Source: Stenomitos rutilans HA7619-LM2 (lineage in GTDB: Bacteria > Cyanobacteriota > Cyanobacteriia > Leptolyngbyales > Leptolyngbyaceae). From it: a DNA stretch of 64,000 nucleotides. Made by a program: the position numbers and the translations under genes. Within the stretch, counting starts at the first letter, position 1. Each line of letters opens with the position of its first letter. The notes below the pieces were generated by a model that was not told the DNA's origin, ran no database searches, and saw only the letters and a list, made by a program, of their open reading frames with translations. This document shows, in pieces, positions 11,564 to 29,524 of this stretch. The stretch covers positions 372,001 to 436,000 of the forward strand of contig JAHHIE010000001.1 of assembly GCA_019358945.1 (NCBI GenBank), read 5' to 3'.

Positions 11564-11622
11564 CCGTCTTTGCAAGCGAACTAATTGTGACACTGCCAGC
11601 AAATAAAACATACTGAGAACAC

Positions 11623-11652
11623 CTCCCTGATTTCTGCCAGACTTTCAGGGAG
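11623..11652 (+). terminator. Hairpin after the PRC-barrel gene
   Basis: CTCCCTGA (11623-11630) pairs perfectly with TCAGGGAG (11645-11652) around a 14-base loop, 60 bases past the stop. No T-run follows, so termination is only a possibility. Confidence 0.4.
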
Positions 11653-11689
11653 ACCGCTTATATGCGCTCAGTAGCGAATTGAGAGATGG

Positions 11690-12349: not shown

Positions 12350-12408
12350 GAGAATGTTGTTTTAGAAGAAACGCTCTGCATATGTAGAATTCCCTCAAGC
12401 TGATTCGT

Positions 12409-13443
12409 TTAATCAGGGCAACTAATTTTTTGCAAAATACTGGGCGATCGCAGAGCTTCCAAATTTTCACACCCCGTACAAAACATGGCGGTTGTCATTT
12501 CAGCCATCAAAATCTCGACCAGTTCGTAAAGTGCCGCTTCTGATTCGTGGGCCGCTTGCAAAAACGGGAGTGCCATGCCAGCCAGATCTGCACCCAGCGC
12601 GATCGCTTTGGCGGCTTCCAGCCCATCGCGCAGTCCACCAGAAGCAATGAGGGGCATGTGCGGGGCGATCGCTCTTACTGCGGTCAGACATTCTGCCGTC
12701 GGTAGCCCCCATTCTGCAAAGGTTTTACCCAAGCGACGCTGCTGGTCATCCGTTGCACGTTCGCTTTCCACCAAGGCCCAGGACGTACCGCCTGCTCCTG
12801 CTACGTCGATCGCGGCAATGCCCGCTTCCATCAGCTTGATTGCCATTGCGGCTGAAATGCCGTTACCCACTTCTTTGGCAATCACGGGCACAGGCAATGT
12901 CTCACACAACACCGCAATTTTGTCTAACAAACCTTGAAAGTTGGTGTCGCCTCTGGTTTGAATGCATTCTTGCAGCGGATTTAGATGCAGAATGAGGGCA
13001 TCCGCTTCGAGATCATCGACCACACGGCGGCACTCATCCAGACCATAGCGGTAGTTCAACTGCACCGCCCCTAAATTTGCAAAGAGCGGAATATCACGAG
13101 CAACGGCGCGGACGGCAAACGTTGCAGCAACGTCTGGCTGCTCAACAGCAACCCGCTGAGAACCAACACCCATCGCTAACCGATAGTGTTGGGCAACGGC
13201 TGCCAATCTGTAATTGATGGCTTTGGCATGGTCTGTGCCTCCGGTCATAGAGGAGATCAAAAGCGGTGCGCCTAGCGTCTTACCAAGGAAGGTGGTCGTC
13301 AGAGTAATGTCATGGCGATCGATCTCTGGCAAACAGCAGTGGGTAAAGCGATAGCGCTCTAAGCCTGTTGTAATCTGGCGACACTGGACATTTTCATCCA
13401 GGCAAATGCGAAGGTGGTCAGCTTTACGAATCTGGGTTTCCAT
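12409..13443 (-). CDS. fni: Isopentenyl-diphosphate delta-isomerase, type 2 (FMN-dependent)
   Basis: Interconverts isopentenyl and dimethylallyl diphosphate, supplying precursors for carotenoids, chlorophyll phytyl chains and quinones. The 344-residue protein has the type 2 signatures: an N-terminal [29 protein letters not shown] (substrate and FMN contacts), [13 protein letters not shown], and a C-terminal FMN phosphate site [19 protein letters not shown]. It is a TIM-barrel flavoprotein of the cytoplasm needing reduced FMN and Mg2+. Cyanobacteria usually use this type rather than the unrelated Idi-1. The start is ATG at 13443. pyrR lies 111 bases upstream in the same direction, but nothing links the two pathways. 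Confidence 0.95.
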
Positions 13444-13554
13444 GAAGTGAGAGTGTGAGATGTGAGGTGTGAGCTATAAGCAAAGGCTAAAGCTGTTAAC
13501 GTCACTTTTAGCCTTCATCCTTTATCCTTAAGCCTTTCTTCTACACCCTAACCC

Positions 13555-14088
13555 CTACACCCTGATTAACTCCACTCCATCGTGTCCATCAATGTCTTGG
13601 AGATAAACCCTGACCTGTTCTTCTTTGGCTGTAGGGAGTTGCTTGCCGATGAAGTCGGGATGGATGGGCAGTTCACGATGCCCGCGATCGACCAGTACGA
13701 CCAGACGAATGACCTCTGGACGACCATAATCATTCACTGCGTTTAAGGCCGCTCGAATGGTGCGCCCTTTGAAAATGACATCATCTACCAGCACGACGGT
13801 TTTACCAGAAAGGTCGAAGGGAATATCGGTTTTGGCTGGAGTGCGAATGCCAATACTGTCCAAATCATCACGGTAGAAGGTGATGTCGATCGCCCCCAAT
13901 GGCACCACCACACCTTCTAGTGCCTCAATTTGACGGGCTAACACTTCTGCCAGGTTGACCCCTCGCGTATAGATACCCAGGAGCACGAGTTTAGAGAGAT
14001 CCGATCGTTCAACTACCTGCGATGCCAAGCGCGTCACGGTTCGACGGAGTTCTTCCGCTGAAAGAATTTCGACCACTTCTGGAGACAT
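13555..14088 (-). CDS. pyrR: PyrR, pyrimidine regulatory protein / uracil phosphoribosyltransferase
   Basis: 177 residues with a phosphoribosyltransferase fold. The PRPP-binding motif is [20 protein letters not shown] (about residues 95-114), and the N-terminal [19 protein letters not shown] and [16 protein letters not shown] segments are typical of PyrR. In Gram-positive bacteria PyrR binds pyr mRNA leaders in response to UMP and also makes UMP from uracil. In cyanobacteria its regulatory role is less clear. No PyrR-type attenuator could be identified near pyrE in this window. The start is ATG at 14088. The upstream spacer up to kaiC contains heptamer repeats and a hairpin. Confidence 0.93.
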
Positions 14089-14097
14089 AAGAGTTAA

Positions 14098-14339
14098 GAG
14101 TTTTGAGTTGAGAGTTTTGAGTGTCGAGTTAATTTTTAACCTGCTTGAATAGCAAATACGGCTTTGCTATAGCGATCCTATTTGCTTTGTGAGTATGATT
14201 CTGATTTAGCTTACTCCTTCGGAGAAGTAAGCTACAGCGGTCAGCTTTAAATCTGGGCTGACGACTGACTGGGGCAGACATAACATACTTTTCACGAATG
14301 ATTTAGAACTGCCCTATTCAAAACTCAAAATTCAAAACT
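14098..14339. repeat. AGTTTTG heptamers in inverted arrangement flanking the pyrR-kaiC spacer
   Basis: AGTTTTGAGTTGAGAGTTTTG-type copies at about 14098-14128 are mirrored by CAAAACT/CAAAATT/CAAAACT at 14319-14339. They belong to the short tandem heptanucleotide repeats common in cyanobacterial spacers. Confidence 0.55.
14207..14234 (-). terminator. Hairpin between kaiC and pyrR
   Basis: TAGCTTACT (14207-14215) pairs with AGTAAGCTA (14226-14234) around a CCTTCGGAGA centre that folds further. It lies 113 bases past the kaiC stop codon. No strong T-tract is present, so its function as a terminator is uncertain. Confidence 0.4.
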
Positions 14340-14346
14340 CTCCTCT

Positions 14347-15903
14347 CTATCCTTCATCTTTTGGCTGCACTGCTTTGACAATGCGTGACAGTTCGCTTTT
14401 CTCATCAATTGCAATGCGTGTGGGTGAGCCACTAATAATGCGCTCAAAGTTGCGGAAGGAGTCTTTAATTTCGGGGCCACGCTCGCTAATAGTGTATTCA
14501 CGAATGCCTTTGTCATGCCAGGAACCTCGCATCTTAAAGACATTGATTGCTCGTGCCATTTCACCTCTAATTTCAACGTATTGCAGCATCAAAATTGTGT
14601 CGGTGATGGTGGAGATATGGGAATCGGTGATGGAATGCGACCCCATAAATTGATCAGACGTATTGGTAAAGAAGCCCGTAATTTCTTCTTGTTTGGCAAA
14701 ACCAGTGACGCCAATCACAAACTGACGAAAGGCGTTATTGCTGACACCACGAGCCAGAGCTGAAAGAGAATCGATCGCAATTCGTGACGGTTTAAATTCA
14801 GCAATTTCGGTTTTAATAATCTGCAAATGATCTTCTAAGCCTGCTGATTCTGGGTAGGCGCAGATAATTCTCAGTACGCCTTTTTGCTCCAATTCTTCAA
14901 AGTCGATGCCCCAGGAATAGGCATTGCGAGATAACTGAGCGCGTGACTCTTCATAGGCAAACAAAATGGCACGATCGCCTCGTTGGCAAGCATCTTGCAA
15001 AAACTTGCTCACCATCATGGTTTTGCCGGTTCCAGTTGCCCCCGTTGCCAGAATAATGGAGTCTTTAAAGAAGCCGCCGCCGCACATTTCATCCAGCGTT
15101 TTGACTCCAGATGAAACGCGCACATTAGACGATCGCTGAGTTAAACGCATCGCTCCCAGTGGGAAGATATTGATGCCGTTATTGGTAATGGTGAAGGGAT
15201 ACTCCCCCTTCATGTGGGTAGTGCCACGTAGTTTGAGAATCTCGATCGTTCGCCGCCGTCGTTCCCCCTCCAATACGTTACGAATAATCACCACATTATC
15301 GGAGACAAATTCTTCGACGCCAAAACGAGCGACGGGGCCATATTCTTCCACACGCTCTGTGGTCATCAGCGTAGTTGCGCCCACTTGCTTGAGGCGAGCG
15401 ACCAACCGAAAAATTTCGCGTCGCACCACACCAGCGGAATCGTATTGTTGGAAAACGGCTGTTACAGAGTCGATCGACACCCGCTTCGCTTTGTATTTAC
15501 GAATCGCATACTGAATCCGCTCAATCAAAGCTGATAAATCAAAATTACCTGCTATATCTTGCCCCTCTGGATCGGGAGATGCATCTAAAATAAAAAGCTT
15601 GCCTTCATTAATAAATTTCTGTAGATCCCAACCAAAACTGAAGGCATTTTTGATGATATCAGCGGGAGATTCTTCAAACGTGACAAAAATACCTGATTCG
15701 TCGAAATCAACAATACTGTGGTACAGAAATTGAATGGCTAATAGTGTTTTGCCTGTGCCGGATGTCCCACTAATGAGGGTTGTACGACCTGTGGGTAATC
15801 CACCGTGGCTAATGTCGTCAAACCCTTCAATCATGGTGCGAATTTTTTGCACACCGGGGATGTTGTGTTCGCCGTTTGGTGAACTTTGGCTCAGTTGGTT
15901 CAT
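14347..15903 (-). CDS. kaiC: Circadian clock ATPase/autokinase KaiC
   Basis: Core oscillator: a double RecA-type ATPase that forms hexamers and cycles through phosphorylation under control of KaiA and KaiB. 518 residues. The CI domain has Walker A GTSGTGKT (46-53); the CII domain has [10 protein letters not shown]. The autophosphorylation pair is intact as Ser431 and Thr432 in DSHISTITDTI, counting back from the C-terminus. The C-terminal A-loop/tail that KaiA binds is present (SGSPTRIAIDEKSELSRIV). EE catalytic residues appear in both halves (VTFEES; FAYEES). All features indicate a working canonical KaiC. It is the last gene of kaiA-kaiB-kaiC, 99 bases after kaiB. Confidence 0.98.
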   Translation of the reverse strand: MNQLSQSSPNGEHNIPGVQKIRTMIEGFDDISHGGLPTGRTTLISGTSGTGKTLLAIQFLYHSIVDFDESGIFVTFEESPADIIKNAFSFGWDLQKFINEGKLFILDASPDPEGQDIAGNFDLSALIERIQYAIRKYKAKRVSIDSVTAVFQQYDSAGVVRREIFRLVARLKQVGATTLMTTERVEEYGPVARFGVEEFVSDNVVIIRNVLEGERRRRTIEILKLRGTTHMKGEYPFTITNNGINIFPLGAMRLTQRSSNVRVSSGVKTLDEMCGGGFFKDSIILATGATGTGKTMMVSKFLQDACQRGDRAILFAYEESRAQLSRNAYSWGIDFEELEQKGVLRIICAYPESAGLEDHLQIIKTEIAEFKPSRIAIDSLSALARGVSNNAFRQFVIGVTGFAKQEEITGFFTNTSDQFMGSHSITDSHISTITDTILMLQYVEIRGEMARAINVFKMRGSWHDKGIREYTISERGPEIKDSFRNFERIISGSPTRIAIDEKSELSRIVKAVQPKDEG

Positions 15904-16002
15904 AGGATATGATTAAGACAATCGATAAACTGGCTTGTTTGTCGTTGTGCCGTACCGTTTTGCTATTGGTAGCATACGCCCTATCGTGAACAGTTTGATC
16001 GG

Positions 16003-16323
16003 TTACTCTAGCAAGTCAAAAGCGTCATCTCGTAGCTCTTCGTAGAGGAGATCCAGCCCAATGAGCACTTTTTCACGATCAGACAAGTCACCAATAATCT
16101 TACGTACAGGCGGCGGCAAAATTTTAGACAGCGTTGGAGTTGCTAAGATTTTATCTTCCTCGGCAAGTTGAGGATTCTTCAAAACATCAATCACTTTCAG
16201 CGCGTAAACACCTTGAAAGTCTTTTTCAAGAATGTCATTTAAGACTTTCAGCGCGCGAATTGAGCTTGGTGTATTTCCAGCAACGTAGAGCTTGAGGATG
16301 TAGGTTTTTTTAAGGGAGCTCAT
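16003..16323 (-). CDS. kaiB: Circadian clock protein KaiB
   Basis: Thioredoxin-like fold-switching protein that binds the CI ring of KaiC, sequesters KaiA and also recruits the kinases SasA and CikA. The sequence is canonical: [17 protein letters not shown] at the start, then [40 protein letters not shown] and [14 protein letters not shown]. The frame opens six codons earlier at 16341 (MLVEPS), but the ATG at 16323 (MSSLKKTY) gives 106 residues, closest to the usual 102-residue protein. It sits between kaiA (84 bases from the longer start) and kaiC, so the three genes probably form one transcript or two. Confidence 0.97.
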
Positions 16324-16425
16324 AGAAGGTTCAACAAGCATAAAAGCCAGGGCTGATGCCTCATTATTTTAGTGCGATCGTTTCCTAAAGAGACAGAGGT
16401 TGCAATACCGTTTCACGGATCAAGC

Positions 16426-17376
16426 TCACGCTTCTCTTGGTACAGAACGTCGATACATCTCGCATAGATGAGCGATCGTGTCAATCAGCGTCAGGCGATA
16501 ATCTAGTAAAATGTCATCGCTACGGCCCTCCAATTTTAGCTGTTTCGCAAACTCATCCATCAAATCCATGTGGATTTCTACCACTTGCGACGTCGCAACA
16601 TCGGCAAAGAAGGCAGAATTGACAAACTCATCAATGCGCTGATTGAGCGTGTCGTCTTCTCCAAAGTAATGTAAAACAATCTCTCGATATTCACTGCGGA
16701 GTTGCGCTAAGGCTTCTTGCTGCTGTGTTGCGGACAAATAGCGGAAGAAATTGCGTGGATTGCGCTTGTAATAAACGCCGAGATAACCCAGTCGTTCTTT
16801 GAGCTTTTCTGATAATCGCCGCTGTTGCAACATAAGGAAGTTTTGAGCACTGAGATCTGTCGCCAGATCAACCGTTGAAAGTGTGTTGCTTAAGCGACAC
16901 GTTGGCGAAAGGTGAAGGAATTGATCGATCGCCCGTTCAATGTCATCGTTAACGGCTTCAAATTGATTCGGTGTAATCCACACTTCTGCTGTGTGATAGG
17001 CAAAGGCAAGCCCAAGGTAATCGACTGCTTTACTGACCCGCGTTGGCTCTATAGCAGCAGGAGAGGTGCTTGATTGGCTATTCTCAACGGTGGCTAATGG
17101 CTCTTCACTCACCACAACTGCTGGAAGCAGCGTTGCCTGACCGTGTAGCTGATGCGCAAGCTGAGGTAAGGTTGGGCTGCTACGTAGAACCAGGCAATCA
17201 AGGCTGTGCTTTTCTTGCTCCACAAAGGTGAAGAACTCATCGCTCGATTGCAGCAGTGTGATGAGATGTCGATCGCGGTCTAGCCAGGGTAAGAGTGCCT
17301 GAGTCAGCGGTTCAGACTCGAGGAAAATACCGATCGAGAGCTTAGAACGTTGCAAGTTAGGCGAAGGATGGTTCAA
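16426..17376 (-). CDS. kaiA: Circadian clock protein KaiA
   Basis: Stimulates KaiC autophosphorylation by pulling on its C-terminal tail. 316 residues, full length. There is an N-terminal pseudo-receiver domain (about 1-150: LSIGIFLESEPLTQALLPWL, lacking the phospho-acceptor pattern), a linker, and a C-terminal four-helix dimerisation/KaiC-binding domain (LSEKLKERLGYLGVYYKRNP, FFRYLSATQQQEAL, MDLMDEFAKQLKLEGRSDDIL). It is about 30 residues longer than the Synechococcus elongatus protein; part of the excess is a Ser/Pro-rich insertion near residue 100 (SQSSTSPAAIEPTR). Many filamentous cyanobacteria have a shortened KaiA, so the full pseudo-receiver is informative. Confidence 0.97.
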   Translation of the reverse strand: MNHPSPNLQRSKLSIGIFLESEPLTQALLPWLDRDRHLITLLQSSDEFFTFVEQEKHSLDCLVLRSSPTLPQLAHQLHGQATLLPAVVVSEEPLATVENSQSSTSPAAIEPTRVSKAVDYLGLAFAYHTAEVWITPNQFEAVNDDIERAIDQFLHLSPTCRLSNTLSTVDLATDLSAQNFLMLQQRRLSEKLKERLGYLGVYYKRNPRNFFRYLSATQQQEALAQLRSEYREIVLHYFGEDDTLNQRIDEFVNSAFFADVATSQVVEIHMDLMDEFAKQLKLEGRSDDILLDYRLTLIDTIAHLCEMYRRSVPREA

Positions 17377-17475
17377 AACGATCTAAAACCTGGACACTGA
17401 TTAAAACAGCCTTTGTTGCTCCTAGACCTCAAGCGTCTACTGCAAATGGCTCGAAAAGCTTTAATTTTTATTAAG

Positions 17476-17505
17476 ATTCTAGCACTCAATTAATTATAGT
17501 TACAA
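17476..17505 (-). promoter_or_regulatory. Candidate promoter of kaiA
   Basis: On the minus strand TTGTAA (17505-17500) and TAGAAT (17481-17476) are separated by 18 bases, about 100 bases before the kaiA start. This resembles a sigma-70-type -35/-10 pair. It is read by eye only, in an AT-rich stretch where chance matches are likely. The rest of the 446-base divergent spacer 17377-17822 has no other clear element. Confidence 0.3.
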
Positions 17506-17822
17506 ACTAGCCGGACTCTGAGCATACTAGCCTGCTACAGGGGCATAATCGAGTGGTATTGCTCATCTATTGACCGAAATCGTTTACGTCTTCTTTTTAC
17601 TCGTTGTGATTTCAGTCCTCGTTGTGACTTCAGCCACCTAAACATACCTAAGCATAAAAACCTCAGTACAAAAGTCTTTGTGTGCATGTGCTGATGGTGT
17701 CAGTGTCTCTAACTTTGATTGCGCCTGCTGGTTGTTGAAGTTTTGCTAAACCGTTGCCCGGTACAATTGCCCCGTTTTAGCGTTGCCTGCTTCGTGTCCC
17801 TGTTCTCTCAGGCAATCGTTTT

Positions 17823-20800
17823 ATGGTCTCAAGCCTCCCTCGTCTTCAGTCCTTTCTTGAGTCTGCACCCTACTGTTTGGCAAGCGCACGGCTGACGGAA
17901 GCGCTTGCCATTTTAGGACAACGAACGACTGGTAAGGCTGCTCTTGCAGAGGTGCACGATCGACTGATATTGGTCAATGAACAGCACCACGCGATCGGCT
18001 GGGTGAGTGCGCAGCGCCTACTCCACCATCTCATTGTTGCAGGAATGCCAGGTCAACAACCGAGCGCTCAGAACGACCATTCAGAGTTTACAGGCGATGT
18101 GCTGCTGTTAGACATCACCCCGTCGATCGTCGAGCCGTTGTTGGTTGTCACCACTGATTTAGCAATCGATACCTTCTTACCGCAGTTCCAGTGTCAACCC
18201 CATGCTTGCTACGCGCTGGCGAATGCTGACGGTTGTTTTTTAGGGCTATTGGATAGTTCCCGACTGCTGTATTTTTTGACAACTCAGTCAACCCTGCTGT
18301 CAGCCCCTGTTACTCCTACTCCAGAAACAGCCCCGCCACCGTTCTGTTTGCTACCAGCAGCCCCTCTGCTGCACGAGCTTCTGGAGCATCTACCGTTACC
18401 TGTGATGTTGCAAACCCGAAACGGTCAGGTGCTAACGCAGAATTCGATTTGGCGTTCTCAAATTAGTGAACTTCTTGATCCCACCTGTCTACGTCAGGAA
18501 GTGGCTACGTTGTTAGAAATGCCGTTGGCCGAGCCGTCAATGGTGGGGGCTCAATCAACTGCTCGGCGGTTATGGTCATCCCCGGAGTCTTCTACCAGCC
18601 CATCACAAGATGACGCTTGGCTATCGGGATCGCACCCTTCACATCTGGGCTCGAAGGCGCACGCTAAAATCGGCAACGTGGAAATCCCCCCTACAGTCGA
18701 TAATCTGTTAGAGGATAACCTTAGAGCGTTGTCGCCGTTGGAAGGCAGTTCATGTCAACTGGGATCAAAACCAGGCACTTGTATTTGCGTATGCCCCCTC
18801 AAAGATGGGCAGGAGCAGATCTTACAATTTGTCCGTATTCCATTGACTAAGCTGACATCGCAGGCAGCTTTGGAATTGGGCGATCGGACGCAAACGGTAG
18901 CAACTGCTGTCAAAACGCAATTTATCCAGGAATCAGCTTCCCCTTCACAGTTGTTTCGACTGGCAGCTTTGCTGTCTACGCTGCATGACAATAGGCCCAC
19001 TGCTCAAGCGTCGCAGAATTTTTATCAAGTGGCTTCTGAGCGGTCTGAACACGATCGCTCACTCGGCAGTCATCTCGCGGAGTCTGCCCCTGATGACCCA
19101 GCTTTAGCTTCTGATGAACTTTGGTTGATTTTGGCGCAAGATGTCACTGAGCAGCAGCAGCTTGCTAGAGAGCTGACCGCTAAAAATGCTGATTTAGTTC
19201 AGCTCAATCGGCTCAAAGACGAATTTCTGGCTTGTATTAGTCACGAACTGCGCACTCCTCTGACGGCTGTTTTAGGGCTGTCTAGTTTACTAAAAGATCA
19301 GACGTTGGGTGCTTTAAACCAGCGTCAGGTTCACTACGCACAGCTCATCTACCAGAGTGGTCGCCACTTGATGGCTGTAGTGAACGACATTCTAGATTTG
19401 ACCCGTATAGAAACTGGACAACTAGAGTTAGTGCTAGAGCCAGTCGATCTGGAAACGGTTTGTCAACGCGCGTTTGCACAGGCACGGCAGCAGCAACTGC
19501 AAGAGAGTCAACCTGAATCTGAATCACAGCCTCACCAGCCAACCTTCTCGCTGACGTTAGAACCTGGTTTGGGGCTGCTACTAGCCGATGAGCAGCGCCT
19601 GCGCCAGATGTTGGTTCACCTGATCTCGAATGCACTCAAATTTACCGAACCTAACGACCCGATCGGTCTAAAGGTCGGTTATTGGGGTGGCTGGATTGCT
19701 TTCACTGTCTGGGATACAGGGGCTGGTATTCCGGCTGAAAAGCAGCATTTGATTTTTCAGAAATTTCAGCAGCTAGAGAACCCGCTGACGCGACGGTTTG
19801 AAGGTACAGGTTTGGGATTAGTGCTAACGCAACGTCTGGCGCGGTTACATGGTGGTGATGTGACATTTATTTCTAAAGAGGGAGAGGGCAGCCAGTTTAC
19901 CATTCTGTTGCCGCCTAAGCTGCCAGAGGCGCAGGGTACATCAAAGGGGTGCGCTGAGATGCTTTCACATGTAGACACGGTGAGAAGCGAAGCCGCACGT
20001 ACTACTCAGAGTCGATCGCAGCCTTCGATCAGCAGTGGTACGCCGACCTTATCAGGCAGTGGCTATGCACTGGACGTTTCTGCTTCTCAGCGAAGTCAGT
20101 TGGTGCTCATTGTGGAAGCCGTTCCTCAAGGTGTTGAGTTGCTCTCGGACGAGTTGACAGGGTTAGGGTATCGCGTTGTCATTGCTCGCTCAGGCACTGA
20201 GGCCTTAGAAAAGGCGCGTCGCTTGCAGCCATGTATTATCTTTCTGAATCCGGTGCTACCGTTGCTCTCCGGGTGGGATGTGTTGACCCTGCTCAAGTCA
20301 AGTTTGGATACGCAACAGATCCCAGTGGTCATGATGGCTACTAAGGTTGATGAAGAGCAGGCACAGCAACGACAGGCCGATCACTTGCTGAGTCTGCCAA
20401 TTCAACCCAAACGGCTCCAAAAATGCCTCCAGCAATTAGTGGTCGATCGCCAGAACGCGGCACACAGCCCTCGTTCTGCTATCCTGACCGTTTTACGGCT
20501 TAGCCCTGGCGTCTGGGCAAGTCCACATCAGCCCATTCCTTCAACTGCTCTGGATGCTCTCTTGCACTCATGCCAGCATCGCATCCTAGAGGCTGACGAC
20601 CTGGAGCAGGCAGAACTGCTAGCGCGGGTGTGGAAACCAAACGTTGTCTTGCTGGACGGCGTTTTAGCCGATGCCACTTCCTATTTCCGACTGTACTGTC
20701 AACATATCTTTCTTGCCTCGTTGCCGCTTGTTACGATCGACCAGGCAACTTCCCAGGCGGCAAACCAGGCGAAGGGCCTACTCGTCTTTCCCTGTCTCTC

Positions 20801-21362
20801 TGCCTCTAGCGCGCTGCCGACGATCGAGCCGAAGATGGAGATCGCCACCCTTCTACAAGTGATCCAAATCGCGGCTGGGTATGCGTGGCGGCCTTTAGTG
20901 CTGGCGTTGGATGCCCTTACGCTGCCGATGTCGCTAGAAACTCCAACGTCGCCAGATGCGGCCACCCGCTTTTTGGATAGCTTTCCTATGGAAACAGAGT
21001 GGTTGCAAGCGCTCATCCAATATCTGCACACCGCTGATTTGCGCGGCTCGATTGGCCGCTGCTGGCAGGAGGTATTTCAGCAGCTAGAATCTCATAGCGT
21101 GGATGTGCTGTTGCTCTGTTGGACAGATGCGATCGCGCAGTCATTCACCATCCCCATGCTGATTTCACTGCAAAGCCTACATAAGCGGCCACCAATCCTG
21201 GTTTTAGATCATCGCCAGCATTACAGAACCTCTGACACAGAGCCGATCGCCCCTTTGCCAGACGCGCTCCAGCAGATCGCCACAAACATTTTGCCCGCAC
21301 CTCTACCGATGACAGAACTGCTACATCAAATTCATCTAGCAATGAACGTGAGCAAACGGTAG
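17823..21362 (+). CDS. Hybrid sensor histidine kinase with degenerate receivers, divergent from kaiA
   Basis: 1179 residues, no membrane span. Order: two CBS-like units (about 8-165), a PAS-like segment (about 180-225), a long low-complexity linker, and the kinase core. In the core, the phosphoacceptor is His474 in CISHELRTPL, followed by the N box LISNALKF, VWDTGAGIP and GTGLGLVL. A receiver domain follows from about residue 757 but lacks its key residues: the acidic pair is LIVEAV, the phosphoacceptor position is Asn809 (FLNPVLP) and the conserved Lys is replaced (LSLPIQPK). A second receiver-like unit keeps Asp945 (VVLLDGVL), and a third (about 1060-1179) has no Asp. A working kinase ending in a pseudo-receiver recalls CikA. 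With kaiA next door, a clock input or output role is an inference, not shown. Confidence 0.85.
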   Translation: MVSSLPRLQSFLESAPYCLASARLTEALAILGQRTTGKAALAEVHDRLILVNEQHHAIGWVSAQRLLHHLIVAGMPGQQPSAQNDHSEFTGDVLLLDITPSIVEPLLVVTTDLAIDTFLPQFQCQPHACYALANADGCFLGLLDSSRLLYFLTTQSTLLSAPVTPTPETAPPPFCLLPAAPLLHELLEHLPLPVMLQTRNGQVLTQNSIWRSQISELLDPTCLRQEVATLLEMPLAEPSMVGAQSTARRLWSSPESSTSPSQDDAWLSGSHPSHLGSKAHAKIGNVEIPPTVDNLLEDNLRALSPLEGSSCQLGSKPGTCICVCPLKDGQEQILQFVRIPLTKLTSQAALELGDRTQTVATAVKTQFIQESASPSQLFRLAALLSTLHDNRPTAQASQNFYQVASERSEHDRSLGSHLAESAPDDPALASDELWLILAQDVTEQQQLARELTAKNADLVQLNRLKDEFLACISHELRTPLTAVLGLSSLLKDQTLGALNQRQVHYAQLIYQSGRHLMAVVNDILDLTRIETGQLELVLEPVDLETVCQRAFAQARQQQLQESQPESESQPHQPTFSLTLEPGLGLLLADEQRLRQMLVHLISNALKFTEPNDPIGLKVGYWGGWIAFTVWDTGAGIPAEKQHLIFQKFQQLENPLTRRFEGTGLGLVLTQRLARLHGGDVTFISKEGEGSQFTILLPPKLPEAQGTSKGCAEMLSHVDTVRSEAARTTQSRSQPSISSGTPTLSGSGYALDVSASQRSQLVLIVEAVPQGVELLSDELTGLGYRVVIARSGTEALEKARRLQPCIIFLNPVLPLLSGWDVLTLLKSSLDTQQIPVVMMATKVDEEQAQQRQADHLLSLPIQPKRLQKCLQQLVVDRQNAAHSPRSAILTVLRLSPGVWASPHQPIPSTALDALLHSCQHRILEADDLEQAELLARVWKPNVVLLDGVLADATSYFRLYCQHIFLASLPLVTIDQATSQAANQAKGLLVFPCLSASSALPTIEPKMEIATLLQVIQIAAGYAWRPLVLALDALTLPMSLETPTSPDAATRFLDSFPMETEWLQALIQYLHTADLRGSIGRCWQEVFQQLESHSVDVLLLCWTDAIAQSFTIPMLISLQSLHKRPPILVLDHRQHYRTSDTEPIAPLPDALQQIATNILPAPLPMTELLHQIHLAMNVSKR

Positions 21363-21604
21363 GTACGGTCTACACCGTTGATACAGGGGCTGTCATCAAT
21401 GACTCATGCACATGACTTTTGGCAAGGGTTCCAGCCCCTAGCCTCATGTGTGACGACGGGTGCAGTAAGGCTGATACTTCAAAGTTTCTGAACTTAATTG
21501 ATGACGGACTCTAAAACACGAGAGCACTTACAGCCACCCTCATACGAGTCAACCACAGATTGTAGAGTGGCATTGTCTACGACTGTCGCAAAGCGGCGTT
21601 TTGA

Positions 21605-21631
21605 AGTATTGTGGGCACTGTTCACAATACT
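21605..21631 (-). terminator. Hairpin after the small secreted protein gene
   Basis: AGTATTGTG (21605-21613) and CACAATACT (21623-21631) form a perfect 9-bp stem with a 9-base loop, 32 bases past the stop of the minus-strand gene at 21664. The remaining 21363-21663 spacer shows no gene. Confidence 0.45.
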
Positions 21632-21663
21632 GAGAATTGCTGTAAAACGGCTTGCAGTGGTGC

Positions 21664-21969
21664 TTACTTGTTGCTCGCTTCAGATTTTCCAACGATGAAT
21701 CCAGCAATATAATCAGCACTGCTGAGCGCTTGAGACTCAGAATCTGGCTTGTCAGACTCCGTTTCCCCAGAATCCTCATCGACAGGCTTTGACAGATAGG
21801 GGTTGTCAAACCTACAGTTCGCGCTATCTACGGCGCACGCCTTACCAGCCGCACGGCCTTCGTTCCACGCTCCGCTCCGAACATCATCGTCTGCCCTCGC
21901 TTGCAGTGCAGGAGCAGTAATTGAGGCAAAAACAACGGAAGCAACGATCGCGCTATAGAGGATTTTCAT
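21664..21969 (-). CDS. Small secreted protein, unknown function
   Basis: 101 residues with a clear Sec signal peptide: MKILYSAIVASVVFASITAP, cleavage likely after ALQARA (A-x-A) near residue 26. The mature part is about 75 residues and acidic (DDDVRSG, DEDSGETESDKPDSES). It has two Cys in CAVDSANCRF that could form a disulfide, and a C-terminal ALSSADYIAGFIVGKSEASN. I do not recognise the family. It is alone between the hybrid kinase (convergent) and a 380-base spacer. Start ATG at 21969; the reading frame and signal peptide make it a convincing gene. Confidence 0.7.
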   Translation of the reverse strand: MKILYSAIVASVVFASITAPALQARADDDVRSGAWNEGRAAGKACAVDSANCRFDNPYLSKPVDEDSGETESDKPDSESQALSSADYIAGFIVGKSEASNK

Positions 21970-22349
21970 AGTTGATCAGATGAAGACTCATCTAATCTTT
22001 ACCCAAAGCTGTAAAGAGATCAGTGAAAATACTATAAATCTTTTGTAAAGCCTCTGTGTTTATACTGATTATGCTATCAATCCCTAGCCACCATCGCCGC
22101 GCAGCCTTCTCTGTCGAAGCTAGAAGTAGCGAGCAAAGTAAAAGCCAAAGCCTGCATGAAGCGACGGCTTGAAGCTAAAAAAACACTACTTCCTCTTAAG
22201 AAGATGTCTGAGAGATCCTTTTGTGTCAAGCTAAGCGTCTCGAAAGAGAGGGAGGCTTCTGAGCTAAACGCGCAAAGCATACATCCTTCGTTGCGCTCTG
22301 CGCTACTCAAGACGACAAATTAGCTTGTTGGCAATCGCCAAAACTTTCT
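21970..22349. other. Spacer without a recognised gene
   Basis: 380 bases. Short plus-strand frames at 22071-22172 and 22154-22324 (33 and 56 codons) have no ribosome site and no familiar motif, and a 77-codon minus frame at 22077-22310 is equally unsupported. Nothing else is seen. Confidence 0.4.
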
Positions 22350-23096
22350 TCAGACGCCTTGCGTAACCTTTCTTTTTTCAGCTACCCTCTTGCCGGAAAA
22401 CAGCGATCGCCCAGTTAGCAGCACAAGTTCTTTGTTAAGCCCTTGCAAAATGACCAACCAACCAGCACCTTGAACGATGACCAAAACTACGATCCATCCG
22501 GTTTTTTGTGAAAACTCGTTGGTCTTTGGAGTAGAAGCAGTAAGCGTTGGCTTGAAAGCTGTTGAAACGATAGCCGTTGAGTCTGTCTTCGGTGATGGTG
22601 ATGCAGATCGCTCTGGCTGTATCGCCCATAATCGCGGTGACTGTGATGAGGGCACCTGACCTGATCGCGCAATCTCGGCGTTGAGCTTGGCCCAACTGCT
22701 GGCTTCTACCACTCCGTCAGCCAAAAGCCCATGCGCAGATTGAAATTGCATCACTGCTGCTTGAGTCTTGAAGCCAAAATCGCCATCGATCAAAGATACC
22801 GCATATCCTAGACGAGCTAGGCGGGCTTGCAAGCGAGCAACCTCTGCCCCTCTACTACCTCGCCTTAGCACGGTAGAAGGGTTCGCTTCGCGCGATCGCG
22901 CTGACCATTCCACAGTGGCAGGGGCATCAGGTGCAGTGGGTTTAATGGCTTCGTCATGTACCTGCGGCCGTGCGAGCACATGCAAAACTGGTATAGCATC
23001 CGGTTGAGATGCTTCGGCCAGCTCTTGGGTCGGCTGGGCTAAGGTGGGGGGACAGCCGACACAGGTGACTAAGAACAAAGATGCGGGAATAACCAT
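22350..23096 (-). CDS. Peptidoglycan-binding domain protein with a C-terminal membrane helix
   Basis: 248 residues. The N-terminus is hydrophobic (MVIPASLFLVTCVGC...), a signal peptide and possibly a lipoprotein signal, with VGC as the candidate lipobox. A single PG_binding_1 domain lies about residues 78-130: LRRGSRGAEVARLQARLARLGY, then DGDFGFKTQAAVMQFQSAHGL and DGVVEASSWAKL. A Ser/Thr/Pro linker and a hydrophobic helix (GWIVVLVIVQGAGWLVIL, about 200-217) follow, with a basic tail. The protein probably tethers to the cell wall, with both ends near the membrane. No catalytic domain is attached. A 454-base spacer lies upstream. Confidence 0.78.
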   Translation of the reverse strand: MVIPASLFLVTCVGCPPTLAQPTQELAEASQPDAIPVLHVLARPQVHDEAIKPTAPDAPATVEWSARSREANPSTVLRRGSRGAEVARLQARLARLGYAVSLIDGDFGFKTQAAVMQFQSAHGLLADGVVEASSWAKLNAEIARSGQVPSSQSPRLWAIQPERSASPSPKTDSTAIVSTAFKPTLTASTPKTNEFSQKTGWIVVLVIVQGAGWLVILQGLNKELVLLTGRSLFSGKRVAEKRKVTQGV

Positions 23097-23550
23097 AGGG
23101 GTGGAGGGGCGTCTATTGACAATATATGAGTAACTAAAGAGCCGTTGCTGGTCGATCCACCCTTAGTGCTGGTGGTAACAAACGAGCGCTGTAGATCCCC
23201 TTAAAATTACTTGGCTTAACACGTTGAAAAAGCTGCCAAACCAGCGATCGCAGAACCTAACACTCTCGTTGCATACCTAAATGAGAGCCTACCTTAAAGT
23301 TTTTGGAATAGTAGAAAAATTTTTGAAAGCATATAAAACCTTCATACCCTTCAGGCGCATGGAGAAAAGCATCGTCAGGTTCGTGATCGAGCCAAACCTC
23401 TCGCTTTGACCCACGAACACCAGCCCTTCTAAGCTACTAGACCCCAAAAAAAACCGTTGAACATCTCTCGCTGTTAGCGTAGCGTTCAACGGGTTTCCGA
23501 CGCTTAGAGGTTTACCACAGATACACGCAACTGTGAGTCGTAACCTGTCG
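23097..23550. other. Spacer between the PG-binding gene and the peroxiredoxin gene
   Basis: 454 bases. It contains a GTTAGCGTAGCGTTCAACGG stretch near 23473-23492, a kind of phrase often seen in dispersed cyanobacterial repeats. A 66-codon minus frame over 23289-23489 reads through that repeat and is not called. No gene is supported. Confidence 0.35.
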
Positions 23551-24285
23551 TTATGCTGCCTGGAAATACGCCTCTAATGCTTCTGACCCGCCAATCAGTT
23601 TGCCATCGATAAAGACTTGAGGCACCGTCGTCGCGCTAGCAATAGCCAGCAAAGAGCGTGTTGTGAAATCTTCGCCCATTACCAACTCTTCGTAGTCCAA
23701 CCCGTGGTCTTTGAGCATAGTCTTGGCCTTGGCGCAAAACGGGCAGCCCACTTTGGTAAAGATCGAAACGCACTTAGGTTTAGCCGCCTCAGGATTGATG
23801 TAGCGAAGCATCGTATCAGCGTCCGACACTTTGAACGGATCACCAGGTTCCTCTGGCTCGATAAACATTTTATCGATGGTGCCATCCTTCACCAGCATGG
23901 AATAGCGCCACGATCGCTTCCCAAAGCCCAGGTCTGTTTTGTCTACCAACAAGCCCATGCCATCGGTGAACTCGCCATTACCATCTGGGATCAACTTAAT
24001 GTTGTCTGCTTCCTGATCTTTTGCCCATTCGTTCATCACAAACGTATCGTTTACAGACAGGCAAAGAATGTCATCGACACCGTTTTCCTTAAAGGCTTTT
24101 GCCAAAGCGTTATAGCCAGGAAGATGGGTAGAAGAACAGGTCGGCGTAAACGCTCCTGGCAACGAAAAGACGATGACCGTTTTGCCAGCAAATAGCTCGT
24201 CAGTGGTGATATTTACCCACTCATTGTTCTGGCGTGTCCGAAACGTGGCAATGGGAACTTTTTGGCCTTCTCGATTGGGCAGCAT
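23551..24285 (-). CDS. Peroxiredoxin-glutaredoxin fusion (hybrid Prx5)
   Basis: Reduces hydrogen peroxide and alkyl hydroperoxides using glutathione through its own glutaredoxin domain. From the ATG at 24285 ([11 protein letters not shown]) the protein has 244 residues. The Prx5-type domain carries peroxidatic Cys50 in [17 protein letters not shown], and a C-terminal glutaredoxin domain has the C-P-F-C active site ([18 protein letters not shown]) and the glutathione-binding [14 protein letters not shown]. The frame is open for 28 more codons upstream, without a likely start. The fusion is a known arrangement in cyanobacteria and some pathogens. Cytoplasmic, single gene, divergent from uvrB. 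Confidence 0.93.
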
Positions 24286-24533
24286 ACGGTTAGCTCTCTT
24301 AATGAATAAACGTGGTCGTTTAACAACATGCAAATGCAGCCGTCTTATCAACACACTACACCCCATCACTGATTTAAGAGTGCCATGTCATAGACCTGAT
24401 AAAACGTACTCGTTATGAGTATGATGTATCACGCCAGAGGCGTGGGTGGATGACCGTCCGGCAACTTACTGCAAAATTCGTCATCATAGAGAAGAATCTG
24501 CCCCCTTCTCTTCAGTTGATGGTAGCGAACCGT

Positions 24534-26585
24534 ATGGCACAATTTCAGATTCAGGCCCCCTTTGAGCCGACTGGCGACCAACCCAATGCCATTCAAGGTC
24601 TGATTCGTAGTATTCAGGCAGGCAACCGTTTTCAAACGCTACGCGGTGCAACGGGTACAGGCAAAACGTACACAATGGCGCGTGTGATTGAGCAACTTGG
24701 TAGACCTGCCTTAGTGCTGGCTCATAATAAAACGCTAGCCGCCCAACTTTGCAACGAACTGCGCGAGTTCTTCCCCGACAATGCGGTGGAATATTTCATC
24801 AGCTATTACGACTACTACCAGCCTGAAGCGTATATCCCGGTTACGGATACTTATATTGAAAAGACAGCCTCGATTAACGAAGAAATCGATATGCTGCGTC
24901 ACTCGGCCACGCGATCGCTCTTTGAACGGCGTGATGTAATCGTCGTCGCCTCCATTAGCTGCATCTATGGTTTGGGGATTCCCTCAGAGTACCTGAAAGC
25001 TTCGATTCCTTTGCGTGTTGGTACTGAGATGAACCCGCGCCAGATTATCCGAGATCTCGTCTCTGTGCAGTATACGCGCAATGATTTGGATTTGGGACGG
25101 GGCAAATTTCGGGTCAAAGGCGATGTGCTAGAGATTGGGCCCGCTTACGAAGATCGCATCATTCGTGTGGAGTTTTTTGGTGACGAAATCGATGCTATTC
25201 GCTATATCGACCCAGTCACGGGCGGCACGCTGCAAAGTATGGAAGGGGTGAACATTTACCCTGCCCGACATTTCGTCACACCCGAAGAGCGCTTGAAGGT
25301 TGCGTGTGAAGCGATCGAGCAAGAACTCAAAGACCGTTTGTCAGAACTCGAAAAAGACGGCAAGTTGCTAGAAGCCCAGCGGCTAGAACAGCGCACCCGT
25401 TATGACTTGGAAGTGCTGCGCGAAGTTGGCTTTTGTAACGGGGTAGAAAACTACTCGCGCCATCTAGCTGGACGCGAAGCAGGTTCTCCCTCCGAATGCC
25501 TGCTCGACTACTTTCCCAAAGACTGGCTGTTGGTCATTGACGAATCGCACGTTTCCATTCCCCAACTGCGCGGCATGTACAACGGTGACCAAGCGCGCAA
25601 GAAAGTATTGATCGAACACGGTTTCCGCTTACCCAGCGCGGCAGACAATCGCCCCCTTAAAGCGGAAGAGTTTTGGGAGAAAGTGAACCAGTGTGTGTTT
25701 GTCTCTGCAACTCCGGGCGAATGGGAGCTAGACCAGTCGGGTGGCAAGTTTGAGAGCGAAACAGACGCAGGCAAAAGGGGCTATATCCGAGGTACAGGGC
25801 ATGTCGTAGAGCAAATCATCCGACCCACAGGTATCCTCGACCCCGAAATCTTTGTTCGCCCAACGACAGGACAGGTGGATGATCTGCTGCACGAAATTAA
25901 GGAACGAATCCCCTTGCAGGAGCGCGTGCTGGTGACAACGCTAACGAAGCGGATGGCCGAAGACCTAACCGAGTATTTCCAGGAACGCGGCGTAAGAGTG
26001 CGCTATCTGCATTCGGAAATTAATTCGATCGAGCGTATCGAAATCCTCCAAGACCTCCGCAACGGTGAGTTTGATGTGCTGATTGGGGTGAACCTGCTGC
26101 GAGAGGGGTTGGACTTGCCCGAAGTCTCGCTGGTTGCCATTTTGGATGCAGACAAGGAAGGGTTCTTGCGAGCAGAGCGATCGCTCATCCAGACGATCGG
26201 ACGTGCCGCCCGCCATGTCAAAGGTCAAGCCATCCTGTACGGGGACAACCTGACCGACAGCATGGAAAAAGCCATCAGTGAAACCGAACGCCGCCGTGCA
26301 ATTCAAATGGCATACAACGAGGAACACGGCATTACACCAATCTCGATTATCAAGCGCACGAACAACTCAATCTTGACCTTTTTGGATGTGTCTCGTCGCC
26401 TTAACGCACAAGAGCTACAAGAAGTCTACGAACACTCGCAGGATCTGCCCCTCGAAAACATCCCCAATTTGATTGCACAACTCGAAACGCAGATGAAAGA
26501 AGCCGCGAAAAAAATGGAGTTTGAAGAAGCCGCAAAGTACCGCGATCGCATCAAACATCTACGCGACAAGTTGCTCGGTCGGTAA
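24534..26585 (+). CDS. uvrB: Excinuclease ABC subunit B
   Basis: DNA damage-recognition helicase of nucleotide excision repair; takes over the lesion from UvrA and recruits UvrC. Walker A is [15 protein letters not shown]. The beta-hairpin region is [16 protein letters not shown]. The DEAD-like box is [14 protein letters not shown]. Helicase motif VI is [12 protein letters not shown], and a C-terminal UVR domain ([21 protein letters not shown]) contacts UvrC. I chose ATG at 24534 ([20 protein letters not shown]); another ATG at 24519 and a start at 24450 are in frame. About 683 residues, normal. The gene is single and cytoplasmic. Confidence 0.97.
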
Positions 26586-26710
26586 AGATGGTTAGCGATC
26601 GCCCTGTCCCGATCTACTCGTGAAACCGTTTGCTGAGATCGGCGGAGAAGGCGATCGCCCTTACCCCAACCGCGATCGCGCTGTCACCTCACCCCATCAC
26701 AAATGTGGCG
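26586..26710. repeat. Cluster of HIP1-type octamers
   Basis: Four GCGATCGC-type sites (in AGCGATCGCC, GGCGATCGCC, CGCGATCGCG and GGCGATCGCT) fall within about 125 bases between uvrB and the TIR-WD40 gene. HIP1 is dispersed through cyanobacterial genomes; four this close together is denser than elsewhere in the window. Confidence 0.6.
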
Positions 26711-29419
26711 ATCGCTCTCTTTCACATCAGGATTGTAGGTCAAATACCCTCGCACCCAGTTGCAACCCCGCGCAACAAGCTGATCAGAGTTTAGCGTTTC
26801 AGCATTCCAGAGTTTGACGGTTTTATCTGCGCTGGCAGAGGCGAGCAGCTTTCCATCTGGACTAAAACTGATACTATTAACAGTCCGAGCATGCCCTTTA
26901 AGAGTTGTAACTTCCTGCCCGTGCAACCTCCAAAGTTTGATGGTTGCATCATCACTCGCAGAAGCAATTGTTTTACCATCAGGACTGAATGTGACTGCCG
27001 TAACTGGAGCGTTGTGTCCCCTAAAAATTTTAAGTAGTTGGCCATTCAAATCCCAAAGTTTAACTGTTCTGTCATCAGTAGCTACAGCAATTGATTTTCC
27101 ATCAGGATTGAAGCTAACGCTTCGAACGTAATTGGCATTCTTAATTGTTTTAAATATTTGACCATTGAGATCCCAGATCTTTATTGTCCCATCCCATCCA
27201 CCAGAAGCAAGTTTTTGTCCATCAGGGCTAAAACTAACGCTACTGACTCCACCATCACTACCTCCTGCGAATGTTTTAATCACTTGTCCGCTGATGCTCC
27301 AGAGCTTTACTGTATCATCCCAACTAGCAGAGGCAAGTATTTTCCCATCAGGGCTGAAACTCACACTACTGATGTTCTCCTCAGTACTACCTCTCAAAGT
27401 CTTAAGCTCTTGACCGCCCATACTCCAAAGCTTTACTGTATGGTCCGAACTGCCAGAAGCGAGTATTTTCCCATCAGGACTAAAACTAACACTATTGACA
27501 AAACTGCCATGACCTTTCAGAGTTACAGGTTTCTGTTCGTCCAAACTCCAAAGTTTAACAGTTTTGTCGTTACTAACAGAAGCGATGGTTTTACCATTAG
27601 GGCTAAATTCTACACTCTTAACTGGATCAGTATGCCCTTGAAATGTTGTGATTTCCTGTCCGTCAAGACTCCAAAGTTTGACAGTTTTGTCATTGCTAGC
27701 GGAAGCAATGGTTTGACCATCAGGACTGAAGCGAATGCTATTAATTAATTCACTATGCCCCTTAAAGGTTTTGAGCTTTTGACCGCTCAAACTCCAAAGC
27801 GTTACTGTTCTATCCCATCCACCAGAGGCAAAAGTTTTTCCGTCAGGACTAAAACTGATACTTAGAATTAAGCCGCCATCGACTTTAACGGTTGTAAGCT
27901 CTTGACCTTTGAGATTCCAAATTGAAATGTTTAAATCAGCGCTAGTAGAAGCAATAGTTTTACCGTCAGGGCTAAAAATTACGTTGTTAATCCAAGTGGA
28001 CTTCTTAATAGTTCTAATCACCTGACCATCTAAGCTCCAGAGCTTAATAGTGTTATCAGTACTAGCGGAAGCAATGGTTTGACCATCCGGGCTGAAGCTA
28101 ACATCCAAAATCTCACCATTATGTCCTTTTATAGTCTTGAGTTCCTGACCACCTAAGTTCCAAAGTTTGATCGTCTTGTCATAGCTAGCAGAAATAATAG
28201 TTTTACCATCTGGACTAAAGCGGACACTTGAAACCCACTCACTATGTCCTTTAAGCGTTTCTAATTGCTTACCGTTCACATCCCATAGTTGAATTGTATT
28301 GCCACTGGCAGAAGCAAGGATCTTGCCATTTGGACTAAAACTGACACTGTGGAAATCATCGCTTAGACCTTTGAGGGTGATCAGTTTCTGTCCTTCTAAG
28401 TTCCATAGTTTGACCGTGTGGTCACGACTAGCTGTAGCAATGGTCTTACCGTCTGGGCTAAAGCTTACACTTCTGACGAAATCAGTGTGTCCATGCAATC
28501 GGTTACGTTCTCTCACACCGTAAACTGCTTGTCGTAAAATTGCTGCTACTTGCTCTTGGGTATCACTATTCGCCCATGTCACTGTTTTAAGACGATCGGC
28601 AGCTTTCAACGCCACCACTAGAGCATCAAATGACTGATCGGCATTAAACAAAGCATCTGAAGAAGTGCTGAGGGCGTTGATTTCGTTGATCTTTGCGTCT
28701 CGGTATTGGCTAAAAGCGAAGAGTCCCAGTCCGGTGGCAGCGGCTAAACCACCCACAGCAGCGACCAGCGCGATCGTCGTAGCTCGTCGTAGTTTCTTTT
28801 CACGCTGAAGCTCTGTTATTTGTAGATCGCTCTCTGCCTTTCGACTCTCATTGATGTACTCGCGTTGCAGTTCGGTCGATCGCGGTTCTTTCTCGGCATT
28901 TTGCGTCAGCCATTGAATCACTGCTTCCAGTTCACTGCCCCGCAGCAGCAAATCAGGGTTGCGGGTCTTGTTGTCCCACTCGATCGCCTTCACTAAAATG
29001 CGTGTGTGCTGCTGTACGTGCGCTAAATCGGTGTCGATCGCCTGTAGCAGCAGTTGAAAGGCACCGTCAAAGTCATCGGTTTCGCGGAAGAATAACCAGT
29101 TGTGTCGTCTGAGCGCATCGTGAGCCTGTTTTGTGTCGAAGTCATCGCGTCTGACGACAGGTACTAATCGCTTATGCTGCAAAACAGCATGATCTACCTC
29201 CTGATTGCAAACCTTTGAAGCTACCGAATCGGGACTGATTACAAAAATGAACGTATCGGTGGCTTCGATGCCTCGTTCGATTTCTTGCCACCAGTCGGCG
29301 GTGAGGGGGATGCCTTCCCAGTCCACCCAGGTATCGCGATCGTGTGCTTTCAAAGCCTCATGGAGCGTCTGCACAAACGCCTTGTCTTTACGTGAGTAAG
29401 AAATAAAAACGTCTGTCAT
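26684..29419 (-). CDS. TIR domain - WD40 repeat protein
   Basis: From the ATG at 29419 (MTDVFISYSRKDKAFV) about 911 residues. An N-terminal TIR-type domain (about 1-130) keeps the strand DVFISYSRKDK, WWQEIERGIEATDTFIFVIS with the Glu at the position of the NAD-cleaving Glu of catalytic TIRs, and SKVCNQEVDHAV. A helical linker with one membrane segment (ALVAAVGGLAAATGLGLFAF, about residue 215) follows, then 14 WD40 repeats (about 300-890), each with SFSPDGKxIASxSxDxTVKLW. That equals two seven-bladed propellers. Such architectures occur in multicellular cyanobacteria; signalling or defence roles are proposed for relatives. No known defence partner lies beside it. A start at 29488 is open but less likely. 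Confidence 0.9.
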   Translation of the reverse strand: MTDVFISYSRKDKAFVQTLHEALKAHDRDTWVDWEGIPLTADWWQEIERGIEATDTFIFVISPDSVASKVCNQEVDHAVLQHKRLVPVVRRDDFDTKQAHDALRRHNWLFFRETDDFDGAFQLLLQAIDTDLAHVQQHTRILVKAIEWDNKTRNPDLLLRGSELEAVIQWLTQNAEKEPRSTELQREYINESRKAESDLQITELQREKKLRRATTIALVAAVGGLAAATGLGLFAFSQYRDAKINEINALSTSSDALFNADQSFDALVVALKAADRLKTVTWANSDTQEQVAAILRQAVYGVRERNRLHGHTDFVRSVSFSPDGKTIATASRDHTVKLWNLEGQKLITLKGLSDDFHSVSFSPNGKILASASGNTIQLWDVNGKQLETLKGHSEWVSSVRFSPDGKTIISASYDKTIKLWNLGGQELKTIKGHNGEILDVSFSPDGQTIASASTDNTIKLWSLDGQVIRTIKKSTWINNVIFSPDGKTIASTSADLNISIWNLKGQELTTVKVDGGLILSISFSPDGKTFASGGWDRTVTLWSLSGQKLKTFKGHSELINSIRFSPDGQTIASASNDKTVKLWSLDGQEITTFQGHTDPVKSVEFSPNGKTIASVSNDKTVKLWSLDEQKPVTLKGHGSFVNSVSFSPDGKILASGSSDHTVKLWSMGGQELKTLRGSTEENISSVSFSPDGKILASASWDDTVKLWSISGQVIKTFAGGSDGGVSSVSFSPDGQKLASGGWDGTIKIWDLNGQIFKTIKNANYVRSVSFNPDGKSIAVATDDRTVKLWDLNGQLLKIFRGHNAPVTAVTFSPDGKTIASASDDATIKLWRLHGQEVTTLKGHARTVNSISFSPDGKLLASASADKTVKLWNAETLNSDQLVARGCNWVRGYLTYNPDVKESDRHICDGVR

Positions 29420-29524
29420 ACCGCCCCATTGGATATCGCAATGCTTACTTAGGCTACCCGCATTTATACGACGACTCAGAGAAAACAACGAATCTTTTCC
29501 AGGTTTGGTTTTCCGCTAAAGACA

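Follow-up and report, generated by a model that had tools for sequence, protein, structure and literature searches.

The locus and the domains of its sensor gene

The window analysed here is a 64,000-nucleotide stretch of the cyanobacterium Stenomitos rutilans HA7619-LM2 (contig JAHHIE010000001.1, forward-strand positions 372,001 to 436,000), and its subject is a gene for a large hybrid histidine kinase that lies divergent from the clock genes kaiABC. The gene (17823-21362, +) is an open reading frame (ORF) of 1179 amino acids (aa) with an ATG start, which the ORF list, Pfam matches and AlphaFold2 (AF2) models divide into a CBS pair, a PAS-like domain, a HisKA/HATPase core and three tandem pseudo-receivers. 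Opposite it lie kaiA (16426-17376, -), which starts with TTG and has the two-domain form (PF07688 2.5e-62, PF21714 1.1e-35), kaiB (16003-16341, -; TIGR02654 over cut-off) and kaiC (14347-15903, -; TIGR02655 over cut-off). The 446-base spacer described in an initial annotation of this DNA is confirmed at 17377-17822, with kaiABC identified by Pfam and NCBIfam; it contains a conserved block at 17485-17507 and the motif GCATAAT at 17543.

The sensor part precedes the kinase core. A Pfam scan of the window protein gives three matches, all above cut-off (HisKA, HATPase_c and Response_reg), and for this protein alone no CBS and no PAS match. Among 52 family members scanned with Pfam at E up to 1, however, 47 match the CBS family PF00571 (best 1.3e-8). 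An AF2 model of residues 1-460, built with 52 sequences, has a mean pLDDT of 71.9 and mostly exceeds 90 in the CBS region, and its top Foldseek match is the solved CBS pair 4noc (E 2.4e-6). By the relatives' matches and by this fold match, residues 8-155 (17844-18287, +) hold two CBS motifs forming a Bateman module, which bears out the CBS-like sensor first proposed from the sequence. Residues 179-445 (18357-19157, +) appear to form a PAS-like domain, with model strands at 194-206, 311-341 and 433-440 broken by a long, low-confidence insertion. PAS_4 matches are faint (7/52 members, best 0.012), and the PAS identity otherwise follows from our own reading of the model strands.

The core comprises a dimerization and phosphotransfer domain (DHp; HisKA, residues 465-532, 19215-19418, +; PF00512 2.7e-18) with the phosphoacceptor His474 at 19242-19244, followed by an ATP-binding HATPase_c domain (residues 589-698, 19587-19916, +; PF02518 5e-26). 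The motif census finds the ATP site intact, with N-box N603, G1 D631 and the glycines of both G1 and G2 (G661-G665 in the latter), and the window protein is thus a hybrid histidine kinase with both HisKA, phosphoacceptor included, and HATPase_c. The core looks active, as had been noted.

Three pseudo-receivers at the C terminus

Residues 745-1179 are modelled by AF2 as three tandem (beta-alpha)5-like units with a mean pLDDT of 83.3, so that the two further receiver-like units suspected earlier appear in the model alongside the first, and the models contain a CBS pair as well as predicted receiver folds. Together, models and profile matches show a predicted order of CBS pair, PAS-like domain, kinase core and three receiver units.

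Pseudo-receiver 1 (residues 757-880, 20091-20462, +; PF00072 2.2e-10) contains the Response_reg match at residues 761-868 and superposes on receivers with Z about 19-21 (VIA-align). It lacks the acid pair, Asp and Lys of a phosphorylatable receiver: the acid pair reads E765-A766, N809 (20247-20249) replaces the phosphoacceptor Asp, and L858 occupies the Lys site. Among the 161 family proteins that reach 600 aa or more, a set in which some genomes occur twice, Asp is found at 809 in 4, Lys at 858 in 8, an acid at 766 in 1 and all three in none. The loss of the three key positions claimed for this protein is therefore a trait of the family.

Pseudo-receiver 2 (residues 884-1021, 20472-20885, +), delimited by AF2, carries the signature that marks the family in our profile A4, around LEADDLEQAxLLARVWKPxVVLLD. 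It keeps Asp at 945 in 117/161 proteins, has no acid pair and shows Pro-Cys in place of Lys. Pseudo-receiver 3 spans residues 1024-1178 (20892-21356, +), again by AF2. Profile comparison gives pseudo-receiver 1 an hhalign probability of 94.6 against pseudo-receiver 2 and 92.3 against pseudo-receiver 3; fold searches were filled by matches of pseudo-receiver 1.

Over 86 clusters, conservation in pseudo-receiver 1 is concentrated on helices 2 and 3 (0.91 and 0.93), with helices 1, 4 and 5 at 0.52, 0.45 and 0.35. As a control we took a receiver with the usual residues, that of the hybrid kinase L277 (G000:C41:35500-38800), together with its equivalents in a further 15 genomes from the same family as the window; in these 16 genomes helices 2, 3, 1, 4 and 5 score 0.63, 0.69, 0.68, 0.76 and 0.44. 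The pattern is suggestive of a domain in which the usual docking and dimer faces of receivers have relaxed while a helix 2-3 face is held.

The gene is a conserved divergent neighbour of kaiA

The whole protein matches 58/58 genomes when used as a query; since histidine kinases are common, the C-terminal part served as the probe. The sample comprised 146 genomes of the class from 34 families, 128 with kaiA and 18 without. Profile A1, built from pseudo-receivers 1-2, finds the gene in 67/146 genomes at E < 1e-40, in 62 of them as a divergent neighbour of kaiA, and counting weaker best matches brings the genomes with kaiA linkage to 68. Profile A4, built from pseudo-receiver 2 with diverged members included, separates members (E <= 2.4e-19) from the next match (3e-12) and identifies a member in 86/146 genomes spread over 21/34 families. 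In 79 of these 86 the gene is a divergent neighbour of kaiA, the profile matches lying 2.2-3.9 kb apart. Every one of the 86 member genomes carries kaiA, and at threshold the 18 genomes without kaiA yield no member (Fisher p 1.9e-8, for genomes that are not independent).

A second view comes from named loci, the best 80 of 308 relatives and hence biased to close kin. In 70 of them kaiA, kaiB and kaiC are all divergent from the gene, 2 show kaiA only (contig ends), 1 shows kaiC only and 4 end within 1.5 kb upstream. The genomic association of the gene with the kai clock locus is solid, and the divergent pairing with kaiABC is conserved; the kaiA neighbourhood, singled out for checking in the initial annotation, holds up well beyond this genome.

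The cyanobacterial clock is known mainly from Synechococcus elongatus. At E <= 0.01, profile A4 finds no member in G045 or G064. The KaiA of G045 is close to structures that we take to be from S. elongatus, and G064 is grouped with G045 by genus code only. Absence from two relatives of S. elongatus may explain why clock work passed the gene by.

In some lineages the ATP site decays while the histidine persists

The kinase motifs were compared in the 161 family proteins and in a set of 85 with one protein per genome; 65 of these genomes belong to the 146-genome sample, and about 22 of the 86 sample members lack a full-length reading. The phosphoacceptor His is invariant (161/161). Twenty-one of the 85 have a damaged ATP site, a count that is not a prevalence, as diverged members were fetched deliberately: in 20 the N-box Asn or G1 Asp is gone, and a single borderline case (L258) is altered in the G2 box only. 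Six proteins of group f23 and L264, each with one G2-box Gly changed, were not scored as damaged. The damaged proteins come from groups f4, f13, f26 and f28, and 18 of the 21 adjoin kaiA. We also looked at what lies opposite kaiA in 20 genomes, most of which lack a close copy at that position: four carry a diverged homologue whose ATP site is damaged, and the others something else.

HExxT/N is the phosphatase motif of this histidine kinase class. In the 21 damaged proteins the His is kept in all, Glu at H+1 in 18, Thr, Asn or Ser at H+4 in all and Pro at H+5 in all. Compared with the consensus of the intact proteins, they average 62% identity over the H-box core but 25% and 27% over the N-box and G1-G2, respectively. 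Pseudo-receiver 3 is nearly gone, with 2% of positions filled, and pseudo-receiver 1 has worn down to 27%; best kept is the core of pseudo-receiver 2, at 57% (72% in intact members). Sixteen columns are invariant, three in the H-box, two in the rest of the DHp, seven in pseudo-receiver 2 and four in the ATP domain, none of these last a scored catalytic residue. One damaged protein adjoins kaiA in G063; the C-terminal domain of that KaiA is near-identical to chain 5jwr_E, from a structure presumably of Thermosynechococcus elongatus.

In some lineages, then, the ATP site has decayed while the His and pseudo-receiver 2 persist. On the tree, parsimony counts 5 changes and strongly supported branches force 1; as several long branches meet there, the number of independent losses is unsure. 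Because several lineages lose the ATP-binding motifs while the gene remains beside kaiA, reading the protein simply as a kinase may be too narrow.

Relation to known signalling proteins

The window protein resembles CikA in its HisKA kinase, in a C-terminal pseudo-receiver without Asp and in its tie to the Kai clock, but it differs in having a CBS pair, a PAS-like domain, three pseudo-receivers and a gene beside kaiA. The accessible parts of PMC12691664 and PMC12632262 give CikA a GAF domain and a single pseudo-receiver. The Pfam scan of the window protein finds no GAF domain, as the initial annotation had remarked.

SasA, a clock-linked HisKA kinase like the window protein, carries a KaiB-like N-terminal domain, which the window protein does not have. 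The latter reaches 117.5 bits against the SasA model NF006800 (cut-off 342), over profile positions 129-376 only, and a separate SasA is encoded in the same genome (C116:19778-21034; 540.5 bits against the 342-bit cut-off). HrmK, a cyanobacterial hybrid kinase (NF038297), is the best-scoring NCBIfam model across the kinase and first receiver; identity with it was rejected at 286.8 bits, below the equivalog cut-off of 725. Judged by its predicted architecture, the protein is neither CikA, SasA nor HrmK.

Two further proteins offer partial parallels. DivL of Caulobacter is a kinase-like protein without normal kinase chemistry in which the His is not kept, whereas the family described here retains its phosphoacceptor His. 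ShkA, also of Caulobacter, is a kinase whose pseudo-receiver gates the DHp, as far as the sections of PMC12632262 at hand describe it. Pseudo-receiver 3 has a weak profile similarity to the N-terminal pseudo-receiver of KaiA (hhalign probability 51 or 74, by direction), scoring 34.2 where column shuffles (n=60) reach at most 22.8. Pseudo-receiver 1 scores 19.4, also above its 60 shuffles (15.6), and pseudo-receiver 2 scores 16.2; as pseudo-receiver 1 beats its shuffles too and all are receivers, closer kinship between pseudo-receiver 3 and KaiA is not established.

We take all2883 to be the Anabaena gene beside kaiA. It is mentioned a single time, among predicted CRP targets, in the available text of PMC2633013. 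No account of the gene's function was found in the full-text literature covered, which was available in part and mostly excludes subscription journals, and the description of the gene as unrecognised agrees with this. The locus may be familiar from annotation to those who work on the clocks of filamentous strains.

A possible role in the clock

We infer a clock function for the gene, and the reading that we tentatively put first, though we would give it somewhat less than an even chance, is that of a clock-locus signalling protein of many cyanobacterial families that works in a CikA-like mode without being CikA. The N-terminal CBS pair and PAS-like domain would sense the state of the cell, the CBS pair most plausibly by binding adenylates, and would control the dimeric DHp/ATPase core. 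The target of the core would be a separate response regulator, with RpaA, which governs clock output, the likeliest candidate; on it the core would work mainly as a phosphatase or phosphohistidine relay, not solely as a kinase; this phosphatase or relay action would be the part under the strongest constraint. Phosphorylation of the usual kind would not be open to the three C-terminal receivers, of which the first two may instead be protein-binding modules, with Kai proteins as first candidates, and docking there would, together with the sensor part, gate the DHp. CikA itself is a phosphatase that opposes SasA on RpaA (PMC13421787, seen in part), and its pseudo-receiver contacts KaiB through an alpha1-beta2-alpha2 surface (PMC12632262, from the portion available), a face that partly overlaps the conserved face of pseudo-receiver 1.

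A bolder form of this idea strikes us as doubtful: that the protein is a further clock input/output component at the kai locus, absent from S. elongatus, whose essential task is not that of a kinase. The oscillator would be the docking partner of its pseudo-receivers, and the His of the DHp would either remove phosphate from RpaA or pass on phosphate from another kinase, so that in Thermosynechococcus-like lineages the protein could survive the loss of its ATP site.

Several observations weigh against a CikA-like clock role. Seven of the 86 members are unlinked to kaiA (G036, G060, G042, G138, G150, G043 at a contig edge and G061 in a fragmented assembly), and three of the best 80 named loci (L127, L133 and L136, from Tychonema and Microcoleus) are free of kai genes over more than 7 kb upstream; in these three loci and in G036 and G060, the pairing is broken. 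At the A4 threshold a member is missing from 42 of the 128 genomes with kaiA, and the clock can thus do without the protein. In G032, an 85% complete genome that was not part of the sample, a member occurs with no kaiA match. Three of the 21 damaged proteins (L244, L245 and L254) lie away from kaiA, L254 (G106) being a marginal member that scores 3.1e-12 with profile A4 and falls outside the 86. Over whole domains the contrast in damaged members is modest, with 43% consensus identity in the DHp and 35% in the ATP domain. Every scored ATP-site motif is retained in 57/85 proteins, the window one included, and kinase activity may therefore be ancestral and the usual task. Finally, the conserved face of pseudo-receiver 1 takes in helix 3 and not helix 1, unlike the KaiB face of CikA.

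Among the rivals, one that is unlikely but deserves serious weight is that the protein is an ordinary hybrid kinase for some other response, such as redox, light or carbon state, co-expressed with kaiABC through a shared divergent promoter region and making no contact with the oscillator. The spacer speaks for it: the AT-rich block at 17485-17507 followed by CATAAT near 17543 (region 17485-17549) recurs in 21/159 spacers, duplicates included, where mononucleotide shuffles lead one to expect 0.06, and the three kai-free named loci and two f3 genomes (G036 and G060) hold the gene away from kai. All occurrences of the block, however, are in or near the window's own family, whereas the gene order spans 21 families, and the 146 genomes include no member without kaiA.

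It seems improbable to us that the protein is an input regulator controlling kaiABC expression by way of a response regulator of its own, with no contact to Kai proteins. Divergent gene pairs often share regulation, and the full set of ATP-site motifs in those 57 proteins would suit such an input kinase; yet the members with a damaged site still adjoin kaiA in 18 of 21 cases.

It is very improbable that the protein is a diverged CikA that substitutes where CikA is missing. The two share the plan of sensor, kinase and pseudo-receiver, and no CikA was identified in the window genome: a GAF search gave 102 matches, 20 kinase regions were scanned, NCBIfam at E <= 1e-60 named none of 8 of those regions CikA, the GAF kinase ORF L188 ends without a receiver, and a search of the Protein Data Bank (PDB) with kinase region L192 was of no help. 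Against this stand a CBS pair, a PAS-like domain and three pseudo-receivers in place of CikA's parts, with GAF missing from the window protein and not among the 25 families listed, of 26, for 52 members. Pseudo-receiver 1 is also much nearer to PleD/DivK-type receivers (1e-10) than to 2j48, which we take to be the CikA pseudo-receiver (8.5e-4, row 60 of 143 matches). The CikA pseudo-receiver is not among the 50 VIA-align matches listed, which excludes nothing.

Least probable of all is mere inertia of gene order, unconnected with clock function: gene order can persist without known reason, but this pair is maintained in 21/34 sampled families and usually survives the loss of kinase motifs.

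The gene may supply a part that the picture of the bacterial clock lacks; if the protein does act in the clock, the standard model leaves out a conserved component of filamentous and many unicellular cyanobacteria. It might also hint at the route by which metabolic input reaches clocks whose KaiA is truncated, a truncation that the part of PMC8113500 available to us describes for Nostocales. With the His retained throughout, the position in the genome mostly so, and the ATP site lost from certain lineages, the family would serve as a natural experiment that sets phosphatase or relay function apart from kinase function.

Further observations

In the locus L074:118-2102 and its copy L085, from the uncultured cyanobacterium PMM_0083, the gene is the immediate neighbour of kaiC, kaiA and kaiB giving no match in the interval, and the conserved spacer block is retained although kaiAB are missing; the arrangement reflects a clean deletion of kaiAB or else an assembly error. 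The PMM_0083 genome is G032, the 85% complete genome without a kaiA match, and it has KaiB-domain matches elsewhere. In eight genomes (G069, G111, G119, G127, G134, G146, G152 and G158) the KaiA frame is short (129-202 aa), which suggests loss of the KaiA N-terminal domain there, yet the neighbour gene is still long (1071-1167 aa).

A plasmid collection yielded 2708 records matching the gene, none over more than 80% of the query and none at 60% identity, and an Rfam scan of window positions 11000-27000 gave no match. Further along the window, a 934-aa ORF (26684-29488, -) looks, by eye, like a TIR-type N terminus followed by WD40-like repeats.

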